A stretch of DNA of 64,000 bases from an uncultured Spirochaetales bacterium (GTDB taxonomy: Bacteria > Spirochaetota > Spirochaetia > Sphaerochaetales > Sphaerochaetaceae), in assembly GCA_949283305.1 (NCBI GenBank), contig CASDRU010000018.1, positions 1 through 64,000 on the forward strand. Reading direction: 5' to 3'. Position 1 is the stretch's first letter. Each line of letters begins with the position of its first letter. Both the position numbers and the translations under genes were made by a program. This document shows positions 1-12,802 of the stretch, piece after piece. Under the pieces are notes generated by a model. That model searched no databases and was not told where the DNA came from. It was given only the letters and a program-made list of their open reading frames with translations.

Positions 1-444
1 ACATATTATCCTTCCGATGACTAGAAGCTTGTAGATCACCTCCATGCCGGACCTTATCCCCCAGCTCTTCCTTTTCCTGGCAAGAAAGTCATCAAGTTCA
101 AGCATATGGTAAAGGCGCAGGAGAGGCATCTGTCCCAGATGGAGATAGTTGTCGTACTTCCCGTCTTCCATGCCTTCATCATTGAAGTCCACATGTGCAT
201 TCAAATCTACTTTTATAGGATCAATAAGCTTCTGCTCATCTTTTCTTGCCTTTTCCTCCTCAGTGCGCCTCTTGGCGACTTCCTTGAAGTATGCAATAGG
301 GTCATCATATATCTTCTCGAGCTCCGAAAGACTTCCGAAGCACTCAATTGCCTTTGTTGTTGTGTACTTGGCACCCGGCTTCTTTATGGTTTTTACAAGA
401 TAAAGCTTCTTGTCGGTCTTTGTTGGTATTACTTTCAGTCTCAT
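1..444 (-). CDS. IS1634-family transposase, N-terminal part (cut by window edge)
   Basis: An open frame on the minus strand starts with ATG at 444, has a GAAGGA ribosome site just upstream, and runs off the left edge without a stop after 148 codons. The protein begins MRLKVIPTKTDKKLYLVKT and continues with a G-L-ELEKIYDDPIAYFKE segment and a charged stretch. This is the usual opening of IS1634-type (IS4-like DDE) transposases, before the catalytic domain. The DDE residues lie outside the window, so activity cannot be judged. The family call rests on the N-terminal pattern only. Confidence 0.72.
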   Translation of the reverse strand, partial: MRLKVIPTKTDKKLYLVKTIKKPGAKYTTTKAIECFGSLSELEKIYDDPIAYFKEVAKRRTEEEKARKDEQKLIDPIKVDLNAHVDFNDEGMEDGKYDNYLHLGQMPLLRLYHMLELDDFLARKRKSWGIRSGMEVIYKLLVIGRIIC

Positions 445-465
445 TTTAAGTTCCTTCTATATAAA

Positions 466-487
466 AGTACGTAATAAGTACGTAATA
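466..487. repeat. Tandem 11-bp direct repeat upstream of transposase
   Basis: The sequence AGTACGTAATA occurs at 466-476 and is followed directly by a near-identical copy at 477-487, each containing the palindrome TACGTA. It lies 22 bp upstream of the transposase start. It could be a transposase or regulator binding site near the end of the element; this is inference. Confidence 0.4.
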
Positions 488-504
488 TATTATAACTTAA
501 TAAA

Positions 505-538
505 TATAAAAAAAACAAGTCCCTATTTCTAGGAACTT
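505..538 (-). terminator. Hairpin with U-tract reading toward the transposase
   Basis: Positions 517-538 form a hairpin with arms AAGTCCCTA and TAGGAACTT (8 of 9 pairs) around TTTC. On the minus strand it is followed by a run of eight T at 508-515. This would stop transcription entering the insertion sequence from outside, a common arrangement at insertion sequence ends. It could also be part of the terminal inverted repeat. Confidence 0.5.
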
Positions 539-594
539 AAAGAATTTATGAAAATTTATGTTATTTACCTAACTTCGGAACCATGGAAATGAAT

Positions 595-659
595 ATTATT
601 AATATTTATTATCAATAACTATATACTCTTATTACATTATTTTGATTTTGTGATAGAAT
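595..659 (+). promoter_or_regulatory. Probable desulfoferrodoxin promoter with AT-rich palindrome
   Basis: An extended -10-like element TGATAGAAT ends at 659, about 17 bp before the start codon, with a weak TTACAT -35 at 632-637. Just upstream, 595-612 is an AT-rich near-palindrome (ATTATTAATATTTATTAT) of the kind used by Fur/PerR regulators. Such control would suit an oxidative-stress gene, but AT-rich DNA gives such matches by chance. Confidence 0.3.
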
Positions 660-676
660 AAAAGAAAGGAGAGAAC

Positions 677-1051
677 ATGAAATTCTATATTTGTAATCAT
701 TGTGGAAACATTATAGGGAAAATCAAGGACTCAGGTGTGCCTGTAGTATGCTGTGGAGAGAAGATGGCAGAAATAGTTCCGAATGTGAAGGAAGCTGCAC
801 ATGAAAAGCATATTCCAGTTGCTGAGGTTGATGGAAATCTTGTAAAAGTCAGAATTGGATCTGCACCTCATCCGATGACAGAAGAGCACCTCATCCAGTG
901 GGTATACCTTGAAACAGAGGAAGGCGGTCAGAGAAAAAGTTTGAAGGCAGGAGATGAGCCAGTTCTGACATTTTCTCTTTCAGAAACAGACAAGGCAAAA
1001 GCAGTTTATGCTTACTGCAACCTTCACGGACTCTGGAAAGCAAATCTCTGA
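677..1051 (+). CDS. dfx: Desulfoferrodoxin (superoxide reductase, two-domain)
   Basis: This 124-residue cytoplasmic protein should reduce superoxide to hydrogen peroxide, taking electrons from rubredoxin-like donors; the family protects anaerobes from oxygen. The N-terminal desulforedoxin domain carries the four iron ligands C6, C9, C25 and C26. The superoxide-reducing centre is marked by the HEKHIP motif (H42, H45), H65 and H71, and the C-terminal YCNLHGLW motif that supplies the Cys and His ligands. Length is normal for the two-iron class. A ribosome site AAAGGAGAG lies just upstream of the ATG. It stands alone, ending at a bidirectional terminator shared with the opposing exporter gene. 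Confidence 0.93.
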   Translation: MKFYICNHCGNIIGKIKDSGVPVVCCGEKMAEIVPNVKEAAHEKHIPVAEVDGNLVKVRIGSAPHPMTEEHLIQWVYLETEEGGQRKSLKAGDEPVLTFSLSETDKAKAVYAYCNLHGLWKANL

Positions 1052-1063
1052 TTAAAAGAAAAC

Positions 1064-1083
1064 GGCACCTTGAAAGGGTGCCA
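1064..1083. terminator. Bidirectional terminator between dfx and the exporter
   Basis: The arms GGCACC (1064-1069) and GGTGCC (1077-1082) enclose a short loop, with an A-rich flank on the left and a T-rich flank on the right. It can therefore terminate both converging genes. Confidence 0.75.
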
Positions 1084-1087
1084 TATT

Positions 1088-1867
1088 TTACAACCCGTAC
1101 TTAAAGCAGTTGTAGATGCTTATTAGCGTGATCAGAACAAGCATCCAGAGGAACATTACATCTATTTTATGTGAATCAAGGCGCTTTGAGATGCTTCTTC
1201 CTGCACTTGCTCCGATTACAGCAAAGACCATCATCATAAGAAGCAGAGGATATGAGAAAGACGGCACATCGCGCATTATCAGGTTTGAAATGAGGCTGAC
1301 TGCCTGAGAGAAGAATATTATGTAAAGGGAAGTCAGCGCACATGTCTTTGTATCCATGCTGAAGAAATAAGAGAGCACCATTATGTTTATCGGTCCGCCT
1401 CCGATTCCGAGAAATGAGCTCATAAGGCCTAAAAACAGTCCTGCAAAACTTGAAAAGACTTTGTTCTTTATATCCTTCTGCTTGATTCTGCTTTTGAAAA
1501 GAACATAGAAGAATACAGCGATGGTGAGTATGACCATTATTATATTCTGTACAAGAGATACATTGTCCTGGGATGGAAAGGCAGAGACCAGATATGAGAA
1601 CATGCTCTTTCCTGCAAGCCCTCCAAGTGCTCCTCCAAGAGCGAGGAATATGCCTCGTTCATCTATTTTCGTATCATCTTTTCTGCTTCTTAAAAGCGAA
1701 ACGACTGTCATTGTCAGCACTGTTGTTCCAGAAAGAAAGCTTATCTGGCTTGCGCTCAAAGTGGAAATCGCATCCATGACCGGCTTTATTATCACACCGC
1801 CGCCGATTCCGCTTATAGATCCTAAAATTGTTGCAAAGAGCACCGTAAGGGCAATGACAAACTGCAT
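1088..1867 (-). CDS. TauE/SafE family sulfite/organic-anion exporter
   Basis: A 259-residue, very hydrophobic protein with about eight membrane segments. The N-terminal GSISGIGGGVIIKP motif and the related SSFLGIGGGPINI motif near the middle are the two internally repeated signatures of TauE/SafE (DUF81) permeases. Family members export sulfite, sulfoacetate or similar anions; the substrate here cannot be read. I place the start at the ATG at 1867 because AGGAGG lies five bases before it; the GTG at 1873 would overlap that site. It converges on dfx and is divergent from the amino-acid transporter. Confidence 0.85.
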   Translation of the reverse strand: MQFVIALTVLFATILGSISGIGGGVIIKPVMDAISTLSASQISFLSGTTVLTMTVVSLLRSRKDDTKIDERGIFLALGGALGGLAGKSMFSYLVSAFPSQDNVSLVQNIIMVILTIAVFFYVLFKSRIKQKDIKNKVFSSFAGLFLGLMSSFLGIGGGPINIMVLSYFFSMDTKTCALTSLYIIFFSQAVSLISNLIMRDVPSFSYPLLLMMMVFAVIGASAGRSISKRLDSHKIDVMFLWMLVLITLISIYNCFKYGL

Positions 1868-2015
1868 ATCCACCTCCTTTTAATAAGTTTATATTGTCTT
1901 TAGAGGAGAAACAAGCTCGTAATATTTGTTAAAATAATAACAAAAAATTATTTTAATAACATATTGACCATTTTTGAACATAGGTTTATCATCACCAGTA
2001 TCTTGGGAGGAAAAT

Positions 2016-2864
2016 ATGAAAATCAGAAGATTCATACTTACAGCTATTCTTATAACAGTTTCTCTTGTATCTGTATTTGCAATGGGAGGAGGAGAGGAGG
2101 CAAGCTCTTCAGGACGTGAGACTCTCCGTGTTGCAATGGAGTGCGGTTATGCACCTTATAACTGGACTCAGACAGATGACTCAAACGGAGCGGTCAGAAT
2201 TTCCGGTTCCAACGACTATGCATACGGCTATGATGTCATGATGGCAAAATATATTGCTGAAAGCCTTGATATGGATCTCGAGATTGTCAAGCTTGACTGG
2301 GATTCTCTTGTTCCCGCTGTCCTTTCTGGAACAGTTGACTGTGTAATTGCAGGCCAGTCCATCACAAGTGAGCGCCTGCAGATGGTTGATTTCACAACTC
2401 CGTATTACTATGCATCAATTGTCTGTCTTGTTAAAAATGACAGCCCGTATGTGAATGCTGATGGAGTAGCGGACCTTGAAGGTGTTTCCTGCACAAGCCA
2501 GCTTGGAACAATCTGGTATGATGTATGTCTTCCTCAGATTCCCGATGCAAATATCCTTCCTGCACAGGAAAGCGCTCCAGCAATGCTCGTTGCACTTGAG
2601 AGCGGAAGAATCGATCTGGTATGTACTGACATGCCGACAGCTCAGGCTGCGCTTGTTGCATATCCTGATATGGTCCTTCTTGATTTTTCAGGCTCTGATG
2701 ACAACTTCGAAGTCAGTGAAGAGGAAATCAACATCGGTATTTCTGTAAACAAGAACAACAGCGAGCTTACTGAGAAGATCAACAGTGTTCTTGCAACACT
2801 CACGACAGATGATTTTGAGAGAATGATGAATGAGGCAATCAGCGTACAGCCTCTCTCAAATTAA
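2016..2864 (+). CDS. Polar amino-acid ABC transporter, solute-binding protein
   Basis: A 282-residue extracytoplasmic solute-binding protein (family 3) for a polar amino acid or related compound. Residues 1-23 are a classic signal peptide ending VSVFA before MGGGEE; there is no lipobox cysteine, as in many spirochaete binding proteins. The mature part has the family pattern, including the GYDVMMAKYIAESL segment and the closing DDFERMMNEA helix. The ATG at 2016 is chosen because GGGAGG lies five bases before it. Permease and ATPase genes follow at once, forming a three-gene operon. The exact ligand is unknown. Confidence 0.9.
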   Translation: MKIRRFILTAILITVSLVSVFAMGGGEEASSSGRETLRVAMECGYAPYNWTQTDDSNGAVRISGSNDYAYGYDVMMAKYIAESLDMDLEIVKLDWDSLVPAVLSGTVDCVIAGQSITSERLQMVDFTTPYYYASIVCLVKNDSPYVNADGVADLEGVSCTSQLGTIWYDVCLPQIPDANILPAQESAPAMLVALESGRIDLVCTDMPTAQAALVAYPDMVLLDFSGSDDNFEVSEEEINIGISVNKNNSELTEKINSVLATLTTDDFERMMNEAISVQPLSN

Positions 2865-2876
2865 TACGGAGAATTT

Positions 2877-3677
2877 ATGACAATTTCAGAAATGAATTTC
2901 TTCCAGAGGATGCTCTATATCGTAGAAGATTATGGAGCATCCCTTCTAAAGGGTGCAGGCACTACAATGGCAATTGCCATAATCTGCACCCTTATCGGCT
3001 GTGTAATCGGTTTTCTTGTAGGTCTTGTACAGACAACGGATGCAAAAAAGAATGCAGGGGCAGTCAAGAGAGCACTCCTTGCATTTGTCAAATTCCTTTT
3101 AAATGCCTATGTTGAGATTTTCCGTGGAACCCCGATGATGCTTCAGGCTGCCTTCATATACTACGGAACCAGTCAGGTGTTCGGAATAAACCTTGGAATG
3201 TGGAGCGCGGCAATAATAATAGTCTCAGTAAACACAGGTGCCTACATGGCTGAGACAGTCAGGGGCGGAATACTCTCAATAGATCCAGGCCAGAGCGAGG
3301 GTGCCCGCTCGATTGGAATGACACATACTCAGACAATGCTTTATGTCATTCTTCCGCAGGCTCTGAGAAACATAATGCCGCAGATTGGAAACAACCTGAT
3401 TATCAACATCAAGGACACCTGCGTTCTTTCAATTATCGGCACTGTAGAGCTCTTCTTCACATTCAAGAGCATATCAGGTGCGCTTTACACATACTTTGAG
3501 GCAGCAACCGTCACCATGATAATCTACTTCATCCTCACCTTCGTAAGCTCAAGGATCCTCAGGGCAATAGAAAACAGGATGGATGGACCTGCAAACTATG
3601 ATCTTGCCTCTCATGACTCGCTTGCATTCACAAGCGGCATGACAAAGTTCGACAAGGCAACAGGAGGAACACATTGA
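2877..3677 (+). CDS. Polar amino-acid ABC transporter, permease (HisM family)
   Basis: A 266-residue inner-membrane permease with five to six hydrophobic segments. It carries the HisMQ-family opening ([20 protein letters not shown]), the [11 protein letters not shown] motif, and the EAA loop ([22 protein letters not shown]) that contacts the ATPase. It starts 12 bases after the binding-protein stop, and its stop overlaps the start of the ATPase gene (TGATG). Because only one permease gene is present, the pore is probably a homodimer. Confidence 0.92.
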
Positions 3678-4414
3678 TGGAAGAAATCTTGAAAATTGAG
3701 CATCTTGTAAAGACATTTGGAAACAATGAAGTCCTCCGTGACATAGATTTTTCTGTATCAAAAGGAGAGGTAATAAGCATAATCGGCTCCTCCGGAAGCG
3801 GGAAAAGCACTCTCTTAAGATGCATAAACATGCTGGAGGATGCTACAAGCGGGAAAATCCTCTTTCATGGCAAGAACATTCTTGATGGTGAGATAAACGA
3901 GGACAAATACAGAACAAAGGTCGGCATGGTTTTCCAGAGCTTCAATCTCTTCAACAACTATACAGTTCTTGAAAACTGCATAATAGGGCAGGTGAAGGTA
4001 TTGAAGAGAAACCGTCAGGAAGCAGAGCAGACAGCTCTTTCGTATCTTGAAAAGGTAGGAATGGCTGAGTATATAAAAGCAAAGCCGCGTCAGCTTTCAG
4101 GTGGGCAGAAGCAGAGGGTGGCAATTGCCCGCTCCCTTGCTATGAATCCTGAGGTGCTTCTGTTTGACGAGCCGACAAGCGCACTGGATCCTGAGATGGT
4201 AGGAGAAGTGCTTGATGTAATGAAGGATCTTGCAAAAAGCGGGATAACCATGCTTGTTGTGACACATGAGATGGCATTTGCCAGAGATGTGTCAACGCGT
4301 GTTGTTTTCATGAATGACGGCAGGATTGAAGAGGATGGAAGCAGTGATGAAGTCTTCAATCATACAAAGAGCGAACGTTGCCGTGAGTTCCTTTCAAGAT
4401 TCAAAAACGCATGA
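3677..4414 (+). CDS. Polar amino-acid ABC transporter, ATP-binding protein (GlnQ family)
   Basis: A 245-residue cytoplasmic ATPase that powers the preceding permease. It has Walker [10 protein letters not shown], a Q-loop (VFQSFNLF), the signature LSGGQKQR, Walker [13 protein letters not shown] and the switch histidine in VVTHEM, all intact. The ATG at 3677 overlaps the permease stop and has AGGAGG nine bases upstream; an in-frame TTG one codon earlier is less likely. It ends just before a hairpin terminator. Confidence 0.94.
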
Positions 4415-4420
4415 AAGCAT

Positions 4421-4438
4421 GCCTCTCAGATGAGAGGC
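4421..4438. terminator. Hairpin between transporter operon and flavodoxin gene
   Basis: Perfect seven-base arms GCCTCTC (4421-4427) and GAGAGGC (4432-4438) stand between two converging genes. The T-run is weak (ACTGTTT), so termination may be partial. Confidence 0.6.
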
Positions 4439-4444
4439 ACTGTT

Positions 4445-4942
4445 TCAAATCCATGAGGAAAAGAGTTTTTCCGAATTCTCCACATCATCTCCGAGAATGG
4501 AAAGAGGAGTCTTCACATCAGCTTTTGGACATAGCTTTCTGATATCCTCTGCGCTCTTTCCGGCCCCGTTTCCCTCATTCGTGCAAAACGGATGAATTGT
4601 CTTTTTCTCAGTGCTCACTGACGAGAGGAATGTAAAGACAGGCATCGGCATTGTTCCGCAGTAGTTCGGATAACCGAGAAAAATGTCTGTGTATTCTGAG
4701 ATATCAGGAATTTCTTTCAGTTCCGGTCTCGCATCCGCCTTGTTGTCCCTTACTGCCTCTTTAACGCATTCCTTATAGTTTTCTGAATATGGAGTCACCA
4801 TTTCAAGAGGAAACAGGGGAGCATCAATTAGCTCAGCCAGCTTTTCTGCCGCAATCTGGGTATTGCCAATGCTTATTCTTCTAATTCCGTCTTTGAAATA
4901 GTTTTCCCCTGCTCTTGAAAAAAATACAATTGCCGCTTTCAC
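4445..4942 (-). CDS. Flavodoxin-like protein
   Basis: A 165-residue FMN-binding electron-transfer protein of the flavodoxin fold. The N-terminal AIVFFSRAGENYF segment is the phosphate-binding loop, and the IFLGYPNYCGTMPMPVFTFL segment is the 90s loop that stacks on the flavin in this family. It begins with GTG directly after the TAA of the nitroreductase gene, so the two are translationally coupled. The pairing suggests a small flavin redox module; the partner enzyme is unknown. Confidence 0.82.
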   Translation of the reverse strand: MKAAIVFFSRAGENYFKDGIRRISIGNTQIAAEKLAELIDAPLFPLEMVTPYSENYKECVKEAVRDNKADARPELKEIPDISEYTDIFLGYPNYCGTMPMPVFTFLSSVSTEKKTIHPFCTNEGNGAGKSAEDIRKLCPKADVKTPLSILGDDVENSEKLFSSWI

Positions 4943-5464
4943 TTATCTTGCCCAGACTATGTAGTCTTTTTTCCTCTCTTTTGCCTCCGGCGCATCCCCT
5001 TCGGGGTATCCGATTGCAAGTGCTCCGACTCCGTCATAGGATGAGGATATGTTCCATTTTTTCAAAAGCTCTTTGCCTTCATCTGTTGAGAACATTTCCC
5101 TCTCTCTGTTAATCCATACTGATCCCAGTCCAAGAGAGTGGGCCGCAAGCATCATGTTCATCAGAACAAGAGATCCATCCTCTCTGCCTGTTGCAGCATT
5201 GCTGTCTGCAAGCACTAGTATTATGCAGGGAGAGCCATAGTATGGATCTTTATCTGAATTCATGACCTTTGCATTCATTTTTCTCAGTATATCCAGATCC
5301 TCTTTGTTTGTAACACATACAATCTTCGCACTCTGACGGTTCATAGCACTCGGTGCCCAAGTTCCTGCTTCCAGAACCTGTTTTAGCAGAGCCTCATCAA
5401 CAGCATCTTTTCTGAAGCTTCTGATGCTTCTTCTTTCCTTTATGGCTTTTATCACTTCGTTCAT
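4943..5464 (-). CDS. Nitroreductase-family oxidoreductase
   Basis: A 173-residue FMN-dependent NAD(P)H oxidoreductase. The opening IKERRSIRSF is the conserved flavin phosphate-binding motif, followed by the EAGTWAPSAMNRQ segment and the LGLGSVWI segment typical of the family. Such enzymes act as homodimers on quinones, nitro compounds or flavins; the natural substrate is not clear. A GGAGG site lies just upstream. It is the first gene of a two-gene operon with the flavodoxin and is divergent from the CRISPR locus. Confidence 0.88.
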   Translation of the reverse strand: MNEVIKAIKERRSIRSFRKDAVDEALLKQVLEAGTWAPSAMNRQSAKIVCVTNKEDLDILRKMNAKVMNSDKDPYYGSPCIILVLADSNAATGREDGSLVLMNMMLAAHSLGLGSVWINREREMFSTDEGKELLKKWNISSSYDGVGALAIGYPEGDAPEAKERKKDYIVWAR

Positions 5465-5557
5465 AGCCGCCTCCTGATTCCAATATAATTCTGAAAAGCC
5501 GGGCTGTCCAATTTTTATGAAAAAAGCACTCTGAAATTAAGCAAAAGTATTAAAACA

Positions 5558-5585
5558 TTGACTTGAAGCGATGATATGCTATCAT
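5558..5585 (+). promoter_or_regulatory. Probable cas9 operon promoter overlapping an inverted repeat
   Basis: TTGACT at 5558-5563 and TATCAT at 5580-5585 are separated by 16 bp, a good sigma-70 arrangement on the plus strand. The -10 forms one arm of a perfect inverted repeat, ATGATA-TGC-TATCAT (5571-5585), which could be an operator. Transcription would start near 5592 and give a leader of about 120 nt that is antisense to the tracrRNA. Confidence 0.5.
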
Positions 5586-5679
5586 GAAAAAGCATCCATA
5601 TTTTGGATGCTGATTCCCAACAAGGGAGACCCTTACGGGCGGTTTGGTCACGATGACTTTACTTTGACATGTCGTGATA
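5586..5679 (-). ncRNA. tracrRNA of the type II-A CRISPR system
   Basis: Read on the minus strand, the RNA begins UAUCACGAC-AUGU-CAAAG (5679-5662). This pairs with repeat bases CUUUG (2-6) and GUCGUGAUA (9-17). The unpaired bases are GA on the crRNA side and AUGU on the tracr side, a 2 x 4 bulge like that of the Streptococcus pyogenes duplex. Downstream come a nexus-like hairpin GUCA-UCG-UGAC (5657-5647), a hairpin CCC-GUAA-GGG (5639-5630), a hairpin UCCC/GGGA (5627-5615), and a terminator hairpin AGCAUCC/GGAUGCU (5611-5591) followed by UUUU. Length is about 94 nt. Its own promoter lies directly upstream, overlapping the cas9 start codon. Confidence 0.88.
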
Positions 5680-5684
5680 GATAA

Positions 5685-5713
5685 ATGCTATGCTTAAGCG
5701 GAGGTTTTGTCAA
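5685..5713 (-). promoter_or_regulatory. tracrRNA promoter overlapping the cas9 start
   Basis: On the minus strand a perfect -35 TTGACA (5713-5708) is followed after exactly 17 bp by TAGCAT (5690-5685). The expected start point, near 5678, coincides with the first base of the anti-repeat. The -35 includes the first A of the cas9 ATG, so tracrRNA transcription initiates across the cas9 ribosome binding site. Confidence 0.75.
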
Positions 5714-8700
5714 TGAAATTCGAAGGAGATTATTATATTGGACTTGACTGTGGTACTGATTCTGTTGGATGGGCTGTTACAGATAGTGAATACAATATTC
5801 TGAAATTCAATGGAAAGGCTATGTGGGGCTCTCACTTGTTTGATTCCGCAAACACCGCTCAGGCAAGAAGACTGTCAAGAGAGGCCAGAAGAAGGTATCA
5901 GAGAGAAAAGCAGAGGATTTTTTGGACTCAGGCAATGTTTGCTGATGAGATTTCAAAAATAGATCCGACTTTTTTTATCCGCCTCAATGACAGCTATTAC
6001 CATGTTGAAGACAGAGTAGAAAAACAGAGAAACAATCTGTTTAATGATGCTAATTTCAAAGACATGGATTTCTTCAAGAGATATCCAACAATCTATCATC
6101 TGAGAAAGAGTCTTATTCATAGTAACGATCCATCTGATTTTGACCCAAGATTTGTGTATCTTGCAGTATCCCATATCATGAAACACCGAGGACATTTCCT
6201 TTTCCCCGGTGAGAATATGAATGCCGTGATGTCCATAAAGGAAATACTTTTATCTCTTGATGGGCTTTTTTATGATGTATTTGAAGATGTTGCTGTATCT
6301 CTTGCAGATAAATGCACGGAAATAGAGAATGCACTGAATTGCGAAAGAAACTCAGAGAAAAAAGAAAAGCTGGATGAGGTGATAACAGCAAGCGACAAAA
6401 AGTTCAAAGCCTCTTTTATCAAGATGGTTTGCGGAAACAAAGTCAAACCATCGGACTTCTTTGATAATGAAAATTACAAGGACCTGCCTGTTATTGAGTT
6501 CTCAAAAGCAACTTTTGAAGATTCTGACCTTCCTATGCTTGAAAGCGAGCTTGAAGATGATGAGTTCCAGATTATCAAGAATATAAAGGCAATATACGAC
6601 TGGAGCCTTCTTTCAAGGATTCTTGATGGAAGTGCAACTATAGCAGAAGCTAAGGTTGCTTTATATGAGCGCAATCATGAGGATTTGCTTGCCTTAAAGA
6701 GAGCAATAAGAAAATACTGCTCGAAAAAAGAATATGATAATTTCTTTCATGGTACTGATGCTGCAAAATCAAACTATGTTCACTACACAGGCAAGGACCA
6801 TGATTTGAAGCTTGAAAGGAAAAACAAATCTCTCAGGGTGGAAAAGTGTTCCTCTGATGAGTTTTATAAGAGAATAAAGGGACTGATTGAAAAACATGCA
6901 AATGAGCCTGATGTTGCAAATATTTTATCCAAAATTGAGGCAAAGACTTTTCTGCCTCTTCTAAATTCATTCAGAAATGGAATAATACCGAATCAGATTA
7001 TAAAAGAAGAGCTTAAGAAAATTCTTGACAATGCATCCTGCTTCCTTCCGTTCCTAAACGAAAAGGATGAAGAAGGATATACGGTTAATGAAAAGCTTCT
7101 TTCTATGATCCGCTTCAGAATTCCTTATTATGTTGGGCCTCTTGGAAAAAACGAGAAAGGCAGCAATACATGGGCTGTCCGCCTTGATAAAGGAACTGTT
7201 TATCCATGGAATTTTGATAAGAAAATAGACAGAGCTGCAAGTCAGGAACTGTTTATCAGAAGAATGACAAACAAATGTACTTATTTGAAAGATCAGGATG
7301 TCATTGCAAAGAATTCAATACTTTACTCAAAGTATATGGTATTGAATGACTTGAATAATACACGCCTCAATGGAGAGCGCTTGAGCGTGGAGCAGAAACA
7401 GATAATTTTTGAAAAGCTGTTTCTTATGAAAAAGAAAGTCACACAGAAGGCTTTGAAAGATTTTGTGGTTAAAGAGGGGTGGTTCAGAAAGGATGAGAAG
7501 CCAGATATTTCAGGAATAGATGGAGATTATAAATCCTCAATGGCATCTTATATCGATTTCAAAGCGTATCTTGATGAAGGAAAGCTAAAGAAAAACGATG
7601 TAGAGGAAATAATCAAATGGATTACTCTTTTTGGTGATGAACCAGCTGTCATAGAGAAGAACATAAAGACAAGAATTTCCAGCTCGCTATCTGATGATGA
7701 TATAAAGAGGATAGCAAAGCTCAGATATTCTGGATGGGGAAGATTCTCCCAGAAGCTTCTTGATGGTATATACACAACAAATAAAGAAACAGGAAGAATG
7801 TGCTCCATCATGGATATGCTTTGGGAAACAGGATTCAATTTCATGGAACTCATGAGCAAGAATTTTGATTTCTTTGAGCAGACAAATGATGACAGCGTGA
7901 TTGACAAGCTCTCGTATTCTGTTGTTGACGAGCTTTATGTTTCCCCGTCAGTAAAAAGGCAGATATGGCAGACTTTAAGGATTGTCGATGAGATTAACAG
8001 AATAATGAAGCGCCCTGCGAAAAAAGTTTTCGTTGAGGTTGCCCGAAGCGAGGAAGAGAAGAAGAGGACAGTCTCCAGAAAGGAAAGCCTGCTCAAAAAC
8101 ATGAAAAGCGGCAAGATAAGCGAAGAGGACAGAAAGATAATCTCATCTCTTGAGTCCACGGACGAATCCCTTATATCAAAAAGGGACAGACTTTATCTTT
8201 ATTATTCTCAGATGGGCAGATGCATGTATTCTGGCAAGATGATAGATATTGATGATCTGGATAACCATAACCTCTATGATATCGATCACATCTATCCATA
8301 TTCCAAGAGCAATGACGATTCTCTTTCAAACAAGGTTCTTGTCTGTTCAGAATTTAACAGAGAAAAGTCTTCCACATATCCTATTCAGGATAATATCAGA
8401 AAGAACATGGCGGGATTCTGGAAGATGCTCAAGGATAAGGAACTTATCAGCGATGAAAAATATCACCGTCTGACAAGAAATACACCATTTACAGACGATG
8501 AGTTCGAACAGTTCATCAACAGACAGCTTGTCGAGACCAGACAGAATACAAAAGCGACTGCCGAGATTCTGAACAGGTTTTATCAGGGGAAGGCCAAAAT
8601 AGTCTATTCAAAGGCCGGACCTGTCTCTGATTTCCGTGACAAGTTCAAGTTTGTAAAATGCAGAAGCATAAACGATCTTCATCATGCAAAGGACGCATAT

Positions 8701-9783
8701 CTCAATATTGTTGTCGGCAATATTCTTGACACAAAGTATTCTCGCCCGAATATGTTCTATAGAAATCCGGAATTTGGAAAGGAGTATTACAATCTTTCAA
8801 AGCCTTTCGACTTCAATGTGCCTGGCGCATGGGAGATTACTAAAGGAGGAAGTCTGAAGACAGTCAGGGATAATATGAACCGAAACAACATACTCCTGAC
8901 CAGACAACCTGTAACAAAAAATGGTCAGCTTTTTGATCTCAATCTCTTAAAAGCAGGAGAAAAGAAGGGAATGTTGCCTGCAAAATCAAGTGATGATAGG
9001 CTGAAAAAGCTTTTAGCTGAAAGCCAGGACAAAGACAAGACCATTTCATCATGGGTAGAAAAGTATGGTGGATATAATAACTTGAGTACAAGTCATTATG
9101 CATTGGTAGAAAATACAGAGAAAAATAAGAAATATATTTCATTCATTCCAATTCGAATAAAGGATAGAGATTTTCTTTTGGATGAGAAGAATTTGTACGA
9201 ATACTGTATAAATTTACTACATCTAGATAATGTAAATATTCTGAGGAAATGCATAATGTTCAATTCTGTCATAGAATATGAGGGCTTTAGGTTCTTCATT
9301 GGAGGAAAGACCAATAATAATATAGCTGTAAGGACGGCTGTACCCCTCTTTGTTTCTTCAGAATGCGAAAAATATGTTAAGAAAATCGAAAACTATAGAA
9401 AAAAGAAGGCAAAAAACATCAAGTATGAACTTTTGCCAGAGTTCGACAAGATTACAAAAGAGGATAATGAAAAACTGTATAAGGAACTTACAGAGAAAGC
9501 ATCTAATTCAATATTCTCTAAACGTCCAGGAAATAAGGCTGGTGTTTTTAACTCCTCTTCAGAAGAGTTTAAAGTGTTGAGCTTAGATAGTCAAATTATT
9601 GTTTTAGAAAGTATGATTAATTATTTTAATCGTGACGGTTTATGCAATCTTGAACTTATTGGGGATGTAAAAATGGCTGGTGTTTTACGAATGCCAGCAA
9701 AAATATTGAAAGGAGGTAAGTCTCTTGCTGTTATAGACCAGAGCATAACAGGACTGTTTGAGTCCAGGATACAGCTGTCATGA
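5713..9783 (+). CDS. cas9: CRISPR-associated endonuclease Cas9 (type II-A)
   Basis: A 1356-residue RNA-guided DNA endonuclease that uses crRNA paired to tracrRNA. RuvC-I has YYIGLDCGTDSVGW with D12. An arginine-rich bridge helix lies at about residues 50-70 (ARRLSREARRRYQRE). RuvC-II has E775 in VEVARSE, the HNH site has D858-H859 in DIDHIYPYS, and RuvC-III has H991 and D994 in HHAKDAY; all catalytic residues are present. The ATG at 5713 is chosen because GGAGG ends eight bases before it; a TTG at 5707 would be too close. The last 230 or so codons are clearly more AT-rich than the middle of the gene. The stop overlaps the cas1 start (ATGA). Confidence 0.97.
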   Translation: MKFEGDYYIGLDCGTDSVGWAVTDSEYNILKFNGKAMWGSHLFDSANTAQARRLSREARRRYQREKQRIFWTQAMFADEISKIDPTFFIRLNDSYYHVEDRVEKQRNNLFNDANFKDMDFFKRYPTIYHLRKSLIHSNDPSDFDPRFVYLAVSHIMKHRGHFLFPGENMNAVMSIKEILLSLDGLFYDVFEDVAVSLADKCTEIENALNCERNSEKKEKLDEVITASDKKFKASFIKMVCGNKVKPSDFFDNENYKDLPVIEFSKATFEDSDLPMLESELEDDEFQIIKNIKAIYDWSLLSRILDGSATIAEAKVALYERNHEDLLALKRAIRKYCSKKEYDNFFHGTDAAKSNYVHYTGKDHDLKLERKNKSLRVEKCSSDEFYKRIKGLIEKHANEPDVANILSKIEAKTFLPLLNSFRNGIIPNQIIKEELKKILDNASCFLPFLNEKDEEGYTVNEKLLSMIRFRIPYYVGPLGKNEKGSNTWAVRLDKGTVYPWNFDKKIDRAASQELFIRRMTNKCTYLKDQDVIAKNSILYSKYMVLNDLNNTRLNGERLSVEQKQIIFEKLFLMKKKVTQKALKDFVVKEGWFRKDEKPDISGIDGDYKSSMASYIDFKAYLDEGKLKKNDVEEIIKWITLFGDEPAVIEKNIKTRISSSLSDDDIKRIAKLRYSGWGRFSQKLLDGIYTTNKETGRMCSIMDMLWETGFNFMELMSKNFDFFEQTNDDSVIDKLSYSVVDELYVSPSVKRQIWQTLRIVDEINRIMKRPAKKVFVEVARSEEEKKRTVSRKESLLKNMKSGKISEEDRKIISSLESTDESLISKRDRLYLYYSQMGRCMYSGKMIDIDDLDNHNLYDIDHIYPYSKSNDDSLSNKVLVCSEFNREKSSTYPIQDNIRKNMAGFWKMLKDKELISDEKYHRLTRNTPFTDDEFEQFINRQLVETRQNTKATAEILNRFYQGKAKIVYSKAGPVSDFRDKFKFVKCRSINDLHHAKDAYLNIVVGNILDTKYSRPNMFYRNPEFGKEYYNLSKPFDFNVPGAWEITKGGSLKTVRDNMNRNNILLTRQPVTKNGQLFDLNLLKAGEKKGMLPAKSSDDRLKKLLAESQDKDKTISSWVEKYGGYNNLSTSHYALVENTEKNKKYISFIPIRIKDRDFLLDEKNLYEYCINLLHLDNVNILRKCIMFNSVIEYEGFRFFIGGKTNNNIAVRTAVPLFVSSECEKYVKKIENYRKKKAKNIKYELLPEFDKITKEDNEKLYKELTEKASNSIFSKRPGNKAGVFNSSSEEFKVLSLDSQIIVLESMINYFNRDGLCNLELIGDVKMAGVLRMPAKILKGGKSLAVIDQSITGLFESRIQLS

Positions 9784-10664
9784 GCGGCTGGCGGGTAGTC
9801 ATGGTCAGCTCGAGGGCAAAACTTGAGCTACACCTGAACTATCTGGTTGTGAAAGCATCAGAGTTTACAAAACGCATTCATATTGATGAAATCAACACAC
9901 TTATATTGGAAAATACAGGAATCTGTTTAAGCTGTGCCCTTTTAGAGAAATTATGCAAAAGCAAAGTGAACATACTTTTCTGTGATCATAAGCATTTGCC
10001 TCTTTCACAGCTTCTCCCTCTTTCTGGAAGTCATGATTCACCATCAAAAATAGAAAGTCAAATCAGATGGACAGATGAAAACAAAGGTGCAGTATGGGCA
10101 TACATTGTGAAAGCAAAAATAAAGAAGCAGGCAGAATGTCTGTTTAAATATGACAGAATACAATACCAGAAACTCTTGGAATATGTTGATGGCGTTAAGA
10201 TTCTGGATTTAACAAATAGGGAAGGACCTGCCGCAAAAATATATTTCAATGCTTTGTTCGGTCATGATTTCTTCCGCACTGTTGACTCAAAGATAAACTC
10301 AGCCCTTGATTATGGATACAGCGTAATCCTTTCAACAGTCGCAAGAGAAATAACAGCAAATGGGTACATCACCCAGTTAGGTATTTTTCATCATAATACT
10401 TTCAACGCATATAATCTTGCCTCTGACTTGATGGAACCGTTCAGGCCTCTTGTTGACATAACAGTCGCAGGATTTTCTCTTGGTGAACTTATAATCTCTA
10501 TCGAAGAGAAACAGGATTTAGTCAACATCCTAAATGATAAAGTCACAATCAACGGGGAAAAGACAACAGTGATTAATGCAATTAAGGTGTATGTTAAAAG
10601 TGTCCTTGATGCTCTTGAAAGTGGTGATACAGAAGCAATAAAAATGTACAGCTATGAGTTTTAG
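9780..10664 (+). CDS. cas1: CRISPR integrase Cas1 (type II)
   Basis: A 294-residue metal-dependent integrase subunit that, with Cas2, inserts new spacers at the leader end of the array. The conserved glutamate lies in NREGPAAKIYF, and the catalytic histidine region is GIFHHNTFNAYNLASDLMEP, followed by FRPLVD; these are the standard active-site blocks. The gene starts inside the cas9 stop codon (ATGA) and overlaps cas2 by 11 bases, so the adaptation genes are translationally coupled to cas9. Confidence 0.96.
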   Translation: MSGWRVVMVSSRAKLELHLNYLVVKASEFTKRIHIDEINTLILENTGICLSCALLEKLCKSKVNILFCDHKHLPLSQLLPLSGSHDSPSKIESQIRWTDENKGAVWAYIVKAKIKKQAECLFKYDRIQYQKLLEYVDGVKILDLTNREGPAAKIYFNALFGHDFFRTVDSKINSALDYGYSVILSTVAREITANGYITQLGIFHHNTFNAYNLASDLMEPFRPLVDITVAGFSLGELIISIEEKQDLVNILNDKVTINGEKTTVINAIKVYVKSVLDALESGDTEAIKMYSYEF

Positions 10665-10974
10665 ATTTATGAGATTGGTTTGCTATTTTGATTTACCTGT
10701 GTTAACAGCTTCTGAAAGAAGATCTTACCGCATTTTTAGAAAATGGCTTATTAGAGAAGGTTTTATCATGATTCAGAACTCTGTGTATGTAAAACTGTGT
10801 TTGAATACTACTGTAGTAAACTCGGTAATTGAGAAGGTTAAGCAGAATCGTCCTTCAAAAGGACTCGTAATGCTGACTGCAGTTACAGAAAGACAGTTTG
10901 CAAATACTGTTTATGTAACTGGTGAAATTGATTCTGAATACATTACTACGACAGACAGGCTGGTGATATTATGA
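10654..10974 (+). CDS. cas2: CRISPR adaptation protein Cas2
   Basis: A 106-residue ferredoxin-fold protein that bridges two Cas1 dimers. It opens MSFRFMRLVCYFDLPV, the form usual for type II-A Cas2, where MRL-FDLP contains the conserved aspartate. The fold continues with RSYRIFRKWLIREGFIMIQ and ends VILxx-like in VIL. An alternative ATG at 10669 exists, but the longer start matches relatives better. It overlaps cas1 by 11 bases and csn2 by four. Confidence 0.95.
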   Translation: MSFRFMRLVCYFDLPVLTASERRSYRIFRKWLIREGFIMIQNSVYVKLCLNTTVVNSVIEKVKQNRPSKGLVMLTAVTERQFANTVYVTGEIDSEYITTTDRLVIL

Positions 10975-11642
10975 AACTTGTTCATCCAGATTACACGTTT
11001 AAAATTAACTGTAATGAGAGCAATATAAATCTTCTTGTAATTGAAAATCCGGAGACTTTCCGTTCTTTTGTTTTCGATTTTCTTCGCCAGAGTAGAGGAG
11101 ATGATGGATTATTTGTTTTGTCAAATAAGGATGGAATTCTGGATATAAAGAATAATATTGATATTCTGTTAAATCCAATTGAGTTTGAAGATGTACCTAA
11201 AAAGGTTTCTTCGAAAGTCTTAACTAAATTCAAAGAATATCTTCTTGATGAAAATAATTATATTAGAACTCAGGAAATCATTTCCTCAATTGAAAAATAC
11301 GCAGATCAAATGACTTCTGAATTCATGTTCCCAGTTACATATGATGACATAACTGTCGAAAGTATCATGAAAGGGATTTCTGTTTCTATTAAGACAGAAT
11401 ATGAGTCTCCCCTTGAACGTATCAGTGAATATATGAATCTGATGCATGATGTTCTTGGAATTGGTATATTTGTTATCACAAATTTATTCTCGTATTTTTC
11501 CAATGATGAAATTTCAATCTTTCTAGAGAATTGTGAACTGCAAAAACATACTCTCATCCTTTGTGAAAGTCACGATATAAAAAATGATTTTCCGAATCTC
11601 AAGAAAATCATTATAGATTGGGAAAATTGTGAGATTTATTAG
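10971..11642 (+). CDS. csn2: CRISPR adaptation protein Csn2 (type II-A marker)
   Basis: A 223-residue protein in the position of csn2, the fourth gene of type II-A operons. Csn2 forms a tetrameric ring that slides on double-stranded DNA ends and works with Cas1-Cas2 and Cas9 in spacer capture. The sequence begins MKLVHPDYTF, has the long central helical stretch rich in E, K and I, and ends with the HTLILCESHDIKNDFPNLKKIIID block that resembles the Csn2 C-terminal strand region. Sequence conservation in this family is low, so gene order adds weight. Hand-counted GC at 11161-11220 is 18 of 60, low for this window. Confidence 0.88.
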   Translation: MKLVHPDYTFKINCNESNINLLVIENPETFRSFVFDFLRQSRGDDGLFVLSNKDGILDIKNNIDILLNPIEFEDVPKKVSSKVLTKFKEYLLDENNYIRTQEIISSIEKYADQMTSEFMFPVTYDDITVESIMKGISVSIKTEYESPLERISEYMNLMHDVLGIGIFVITNLFSYFSNDEISIFLENCELQKHTLILCESHDIKNDFPNLKKIIIDWENCEIY

Positions 11643-11693
11643 CATAAATCAATAAATACATGCCTAAAATGCCGTTTGAAGCATATTGTTAAG
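11643..11693 (+). promoter_or_regulatory. CRISPR leader (51 bp)
   Basis: Only 51 bp separate the csn2 stop from the first repeat. The stretch is AT-rich and ends GTTAAG against the repeat. I do not see a convincing sigma-70 promoter or one of the well-known type II-A leader-end motifs in it. Integration signals must lie here if the array is still growing, since the decayed repeat marks the far end. Confidence 0.55.
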
Positions 11694-11705
11694 GCTTTGG
11701 AGTCG

Positions 11706-11714
11706 TGATAAAAT
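11706..11714 (+). promoter_or_regulatory. Extended -10 motif inside the CRISPR repeat (first copy)
   Basis: Bases 13-21 of every repeat read TGATAAAAT, which fits an extended -10 element (TGnTATAAT with one mismatch). Transcription would start near the repeat's 3' end and run through the next spacer. Some type II-C arrays are known to use promoters inside repeats. The same motif recurs in all 16 repeats; only the first is listed here. Function is inferred. Confidence 0.4.
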
Positions 11715-11993
11715 CGTAAGTACCAAAGCTCAGCGCTCAACCCTTCCTTTTCAGAAAGAGCTTTGGAGTCGTGATAAAATCGTAAGTACCAAAGCGCGGA
11801 TGTCGTTGAGATTGATGGACACATCGCTTTGGAGTCGTGATAAAATCGTAAGTACCAAAGCAATGAGATTCAAGAATGTTCCAGATGAAGAGCTTTGGAG
11901 TCGTGATAAAATCGTAAGTACCAAAGCAAGGGCATTGAATGGGCAGGTGGTCATGCAGCTTTGGAGTCGTGATAAAATCGTAAGTACCAAAGC

Positions 11994-12023
11994 GATAGGA
12001 ATCTCCGCATGGTGTCAATGCGG
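11994..12023 (+). repeat. Duplicated spacer, first copy (spacer 5)
   Basis: The 30-bp spacer starting GATAGGAATCTCCGC is identical to spacer 11 at 12390-12419. The neighbouring spacers (4 and 6 versus 10 and 12) are all different, so this is not a simple block duplication. Confidence 0.97.
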
Positions 12024-12389
12024 GCTTTGGAGTCGTGATAAAATCGTAAGTACCAAAGCAGCATTCCTCAAATCAACAACATCCTGCTTGCTTTGGAGTC
12101 GTGATAAAATCGTAAGTACCAAAGCCCACTTGCCTTGCTGTGGAACATATGTATTGCTTTGGAGTCGTGATAAAATCGTAAGTACCAAAGCTTCTTGAGT
12201 CTTGTGAGCTTGTTTTCTGAAGCTTTGGAGTCGTGATAAAATCGTAAGTACCAAAGCAGAGATTATGATTAAGAACATTTTTATTACGCTTTGGAGTCGT
12301 GATAAAATCGTAAGTACCAAAGCTGAAATTCATATCTAATTCATCATAGATTGGCTTTGGAGTCGTGATAAAATCGTAAGTACCAAAGC

Positions 12390-12419
12390 GATAGGAATCT
12401 CCGCATGGTGTCAATGCGG
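12390..12419 (+). repeat. Duplicated spacer, second copy (spacer 11)
   Basis: This spacer is base-for-base the same as spacer 5 at 11994-12023, six repeat units nearer the leader. Confidence 0.97.
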
Positions 12420-12802
12420 GCTTTGGAGTCGTGATAAAATCGTAAGTACCAAAGCCAGATCTCTAGCTTCTTTTGAAAAACCTACGCTTTGGAGTCGTGA
12501 TAAAATCGTAAGTACCAAAGCTGCCGATTGGAGAAGAAGAATGAACACAGAGCTTTGGAGTCGTGATAAAATCGTAAGTACCAAAGCCTTTTTGAACCAA
12601 GTAATAATACATTTTGCGCTTTGGAGTCGTGATAAAATCGTAAGTACCAAAGCGAAAAAAATATTAATTTAACTCCAAATGGAGCTTTGGAGTCGTGATA
12701 AAATCGTAAGTACCAAAGCCAATCACTACCATATGAAGAGACAGTCTATGCTTTGGAGTCGTGACATTATTTATTCTGGGCTGGTCTGTAGTCGCATGAA
12801 TT

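Follow-up and report, generated by a model that had tools for sequence, protein, structure and literature searches.

In S. pyogenes, the anti-repeat of the tracrRNA pairs with the 5′ part of the CRISPR repeat around a 2 × 4 internal loop (GA facing NNGU) and is followed by the nexus, further hairpins, and a U-tailed terminator. The upper arm of this pairing is roughly 25 nt. S. pyogenes makes a short tracr-S, which starts near the anti-repeat, beside a longer tracr-L (PMC11417352), and the cas promoter is targeted by Cas9 with tracr-L as its guide (PMC8616872, PMC11417352). The repeat duplex of Cas9 is usually 25–40 bp (PMC11246509). In Faecalibaculum rodentium, the II-A tracrRNA lies upstream of cas9 on the opposite strand, the mature crRNAs carry 20 nt of the repeat, and small-RNA sequencing in E. 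coli gave a tracrRNA of 71 nt for FrCas9 (PMC8931148). The Treponema denticola-type tracrRNAs make up the Tde group, one of seven groups (PMC7606464). How does the tracrRNA of another spirochaete lineage compare with these? I analyzed a stretch of 64,000 nucleotides (hereafter the window) from an uncultured Spirochaetales bacterium of the Sphaerochaetaceae family, together with the corresponding loci of its relatives.

The type II-A locus and its tracrRNA gene

The window carries a type II-A locus in which cas9, cas1, cas2, csn2, and a CRISPR array are all present. On the plus strand lie cas9 (5713..9783, 1356 aa; TIGR01865, 888 bits, with RuvC, HNH, REC, and PI domains), the type II cas1 (9780..10664; TIGR03639, 297 bits), cas2 (10654..10974; TIGR01573), and csn2, the marker of subtype II-A (10971..11642; TIGR01866, 147 bits). 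The array (11694..12765) has the orientation of cas9 and consists of 16 identical 36-nt repeats (GCTTTGGAGTCGTGATAAAATCGTAAGTACCAAAGC) with 30-nt spacers. The RuvC and HNH motifs of the Cas9 are intact. Pfam/NCBIfam and PDB served only for the typing of the Cas9, whose best PDB match is 9jwk (1372 aa, 803 bits), which I take to be FrCas9 of Faecalibaculum rodentium. No Cas9 relatives were found in viral contigs, and no credible protospacer, hence no PAM, was obtained with four spacers against viral contigs or with the array against phages. Spacers 5 (11994–12023) and 11 (12390–12419) of the array have one and the same 30-nt sequence (GATAGGAATCTCCGCATGGTGTCAATGCGG), and a 17th repeat at the end distal to the cas genes (12750–12765) is truncated after 15–16 bases (GCTTTGGAGTCGTGAC).

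The first-pass annotation had placed a minus-strand tracrRNA near cas9 at 5586–5679. All of the elements that it named are present at the coordinates it gave, while position 5586 is one base beyond the T-run, and the gene of about 92 nt is better given as 5587..5679. Its anti-repeat begins with the upper arm UAUCACGAC (5671..5679), which pairs with repeat positions 9–17. Then come the bulge AUGU (5667..5670), which faces GA of the repeat and is kept as NNGU in most relatives, and the lower stem CAAAG(U) (5661..5666), which pairs with repeat positions 2–6 and, as a G-U pair, with position 1. Co-folding of the tracrRNA with the repeat, which had been proposed as a check, gave the claimed pairing of 14 anti-repeat bases around the 2 × 4 loop. 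Downstream, the nexus-like hairpin GUCA-UCG-UGAC (5647..5657), the two small hairpins GCCC-GUAA-GGGU (5629..5640) and UCCC-UUGUU-GGGA (5615..5627, from folding), and an intrinsic terminator found by a scan (5587..5611; an 8-bp stem at 5611–5591, then UUUU at 5590–5587) were each located on the minus strand. This is an S. pyogenes-like guide architecture, with a 2 × 4 loop of GA against NNGU and then a nexus, hairpins, and poly-U.

The duplex energy alone is weak-to-modest evidence for a tracrRNA. Paired with the repeat, this site reaches −19.7 to −20.2 kcal/mol. More than 12 other segments of the 64-kb window, with the array masked, outscore it, and within the 250-nt intergenic region an equally good score is obtained by 9 of 400 shuffled repeats; the initial observation was therefore only modest evidence when taken by itself. 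The exact pairing geometry occurs once in the 64-kb window. A search of window positions 1–12000 against Rfam yielded no tracrRNA at E values up to 1, which means no more than that this tracrRNA is outside the reach of the curated models.

Covariation in related genomes

Is the pairing maintained in relatives? The sample of the window's family comprised 139 genomes of 22 genera, and the window Cas9 was matched in 35 of them. I read the loci in 25 of these 35 genomes, with one Clostridia genome added. Every locus in which the region was present has a tracrRNA upstream of cas9 and on the other strand. For the 22 loci with a known repeat, the duplex with the locus's own repeat has a mean of −21.0 kcal/mol, against −10.0 kcal/mol with the repeats of other loci, and the own repeat ranks first for 19 of the 22 tracrRNAs. 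The summed own-repeat energy is −462, while the best of 100,000 permutations reached −325. This permutation test is alignment-free. In a repeat–tracrRNA alignment of 15 loci, 99.1% of the cells are paired, 56 cells are double changes, and 13 of the 22 pairs change on both sides; none of 500 shuffles reached these values, and a register shift by one column reduces the pairing to below 39%. Both-side changes are seen in five of the nine pairs of the upper arm. The three counted pairs of the nexus stem all change on both sides with pairing retained, and the GCCC-GUAA-GGGU hairpin has compensatory changes in two of its four pairs. The window has a private compensatory change, in which U at repeat position 15 became A and is matched in the anti-repeat.

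A covariance search with related tracrRNAs, which the first-pass annotation had also suggested, recovered the site. The model was built from 15 relatives with the window sequence left out. Its sole match in the window is 5587–5679 on the minus strand (63.1 bits, E 5.6e-10), and this is the sole match in the whole genome as well (E 1.3e-8). Over the family, the model gave one match per genome in 22 of the 139 genomes, and 21 of these 22 bear cas9. The comparison with relatives thus provides the decisive evidence, and it argues both for the tracrRNA identity and for the S. pyogenes-like bulge that had been proposed. Complementarity to the locus's own repeat is accompanied by a conserved structured body downstream of the anti-repeat, and by a promoter and a terminator that are consensus matches conserved in relatives. 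I put the probability at about 95% that minus-strand 5679–5587 encodes a type II-A tracrRNA with a promoter over the cas9 start, a transcription start at the anti-repeat, and its own terminator, judging from sequence comparison.

Some relatives deviate. Three loci (L046, L051, and L044) have repeat-duplex loops of about 2 × 5, 3 × 2, and 3 × 5, respectively, instead of 2 × 4, and their upper arms are longer. In L025 (genome G081), the cas9 homologue has an in-frame TGA and may be broken. An orphan tracrRNA with a conserved body was found in genome G011 of the window's family (L158, about 8241–8340), with neither cas9 nor an array in the 16 kb read. Here, a 16-nt piece resembling the 5′ part of a repeat (GCTTTGGAGTCGTGTT) is fused directly to the anti-repeat at the place expected for the tracrRNA promoter and cas9, and this looks like a deletion scar between the anti-repeat and an array repeat.

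The 5′ end and the cas9 leader

A sigma-70-type tracrRNA promoter, TTGACA-17-TAGCAT (5713..5685, minus strand), was found as a consensus match with the same placement in most relatives. The A of the cas9 ATG lies within its −35 box, and in most relatives this box is close to the cas9 start. The predicted +1 is at about 5678, the second base of the anti-repeat, and lies at most 1 nt from the pairing end in the window and most relatives; these promoters come from a search favouring good matches near the site, and spirochaete promoters could deviate from the consensus. As a prediction, then, the earlier claim that the tracrRNA is made without an extra 5′ extension is supported, with the +1 about 1 nt or less from where the pairing ends. 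The predicted lack of an extension appears to be a family trait rather than one specific to the window locus, and it is not unique because S. pyogenes also makes the short tracr-S.

The unusual feature of the window tracrRNA is its short pairing arm, with a duplex of about 15 bp. For the arm lengths, I enlarged the sample with about 30 loci of the order to which the Clostridia genome belongs and with three from other families of the phylum. Arms were measured outward from the bulge because duplexes with the full 36-nt repeat gave spurious distal pairs in the short-arm family. The predicted RNA length 5′ of the bulge, which was computed without the repeat sequence, correlates with the repeat-paired length (Spearman 0.63, p 5e-7, 53 loci, relatedness uncorrected). 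The arm of 8–9 nt in the window is among the shortest seen; median arms are 10 nt in the window's family, 17 nt among the Clostridia-side loci, and 34 nt for the three loci of the Treponema type. The analysis suggests that, in the window's family, how long the repeat duplex is depends on the transcription start and not on subsequent cleavage. The tracrRNA would be transcribed away from cas9, with a start no more than 1–2 nt from where the anti-repeat begins and an end at its own terminator. Because transcription would start at the anti-repeat, the RNA would be born near the size of processed tracrRNAs and would offer only this short duplex. Its 14 anti-repeat bases would then pair with the first 17 bases of the repeats in the array transcript, leaving the 2 × 4 internal loop, and the nexus and hairpins would dock the dual RNA in Cas9. 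An RNase III gene is present in the genome, and the window duplex, short and interrupted by an internal loop, contrasts with the usual size. Should transcription already yield a trimmed RNA, what RNase III contributes to the production of these guides becomes a testable question.

With the tracrRNA −35 box at the cas9 start, a cas9 promoter would hardly fit between the two genes. A plus-strand cas9 promoter, TTGACT-16-TATCAT with a TG, was predicted at 5558..5585 with its +1 at about 5592; the cas9 leader would therefore probably be antisense to nearly all of the tracrRNA. Over 54 loci, plus-strand promoter-like sequences are enriched where they would start no more than 50 nt before or 10 nt after the tracrRNA 3′ end; the mean z is 2.02 ± 0.24 there, and it is 0.80 and then 0.02 in the two intervals that follow outward. 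Two relatives (L044 and L018, from genomes G005 and G007) have the tracrRNA about 217–219 nt from the cas9 start, compared with the usual distance of about 30–60 nt, and this spacing leaves room for a separate cas9 promoter. I infer that the overlap of the tracrRNA gene with the cas9 leader may have an effect; it suggests a simple way to tie the Cas9 level to its RNA partner without tracr-L.

Could the minus-strand sequence be a mere antisense of a structured cas9 5′ leader, with an anti-repeat that arose by chance? A leader from the predicted upstream cas9 promoter would cross the region, and the duplex energy is modest. However, the repeat and the anti-repeat covary across loci, also in the alignment-free test, and both the U-run of the terminator and the promoter suit the minus strand, which makes such a coincidence hardly credible. 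It is a little easier to imagine, but still very improbable, that the tracrRNA is a decayed or silent one of an inactive locus. The family does contain a relic, since genome G011 keeps a tracrRNA body without cas9 or an array nearby, and the searches of four spacers against viral contigs and of the array against phages found no protospacers. In the window, on the other hand, cas9 with its RuvC and HNH motifs, cas1, cas2, and csn2 are intact, the 16 repeats are identical, the promoter and terminator are retained, and the anti-repeat has followed the lineage's own change at repeat position 15.

A 5′ end elsewhere is to be given the same small chance as decay. A longer tracrRNA from inside cas9 would be a natural single guide repressing cas9, like tracr-L of S. 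pyogenes, and tracr-L is known in some II-A systems (PMC8616872, PMC11417352). In the 180 nt upstream, however, the best pairing of any segment with the anti-repeat was equaled in 89 of 100 shuffles, and thus a tracr-L extension was not found. A single 11-nt match links the upstream sequence to the cas9 5′ region, but it does not adjoin a repeat-like segment. Regulation of the S. pyogenes tracr-L kind was rejected, as neither a repeat-like upstream segment nor an adjoining seed was found. The short tracrRNA that starts at the anti-repeat is the preferred reading.

How the free form of this short tracrRNA folds was also considered. The predicted fold pairs UCACGA of the anti-repeat with UCGUGA of the nexus, with a gain of about 4.7 kcal/mol over a free anti-repeat. 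Several relatives have an equivalent anti-repeat:nexus fold in the same register with different bases, and arm swaps between loci lower this pairing. Permutations gave 2/20,000 and 3/20,000 before the merging of related loci and p 0.014 after close relatives were merged into 9 groups. That the free tracrRNA hides its anti-repeat in the nexus is only suggestive, and I regard it as a lead. A fuller model can be sketched, in which the tracrRNA is born trimmed and forms a sense–antisense pair with the cas9 leader that restrains cas9 through free tracrRNA or through transcription, while the anti-repeat is hidden by the nexus until the crRNA binds, using the lower stem as its toehold, and so releases the nexus to Cas9. 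As a whole, this model is speculative and rather unlikely.

Comparison with known systems

The tracr-S of S. pyogenes has the same 2 × 4 loop, nexus, hairpins, and terminator as the window tracrRNA. The window tracrRNA differs from it in an upper arm of about 9 nt, compared with roughly 25 nt in S. pyogenes, and in having one hairpin more. The two systems also differ in that the tracrRNA promoter of the window overlaps the cas9 start and tracr-L was not found there. FrCas9 of F. rodentium and the window Cas9 are alike, by description, in being II-A proteins with a short divergent tracrRNA upstream of cas9, and FrCas9 may be a precedent for the short tracrRNA duplex. Two of the sampled loci (L063 and L064) are presumably of the T. 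denticola type, judging from their repeat. They share with the window the phylum, the class, the layout, and the lower-stem placement, and have a 2 × 4 loop of GA against GAGU. Their repeat and their class make it likely that the window, too, comes from a spirochaete. In contrast, about 26 nt are paired above the bulge in these loci and the predicted arm is 34–35 nt, while the corresponding lengths in the window are 9 and 8 nt. The locus contributes, from a probable spirochaete lineage, a Cas9 together with its cognate guide RNA, which has the loop of S. pyogenes and a much shorter arm than that of the T. denticola type.
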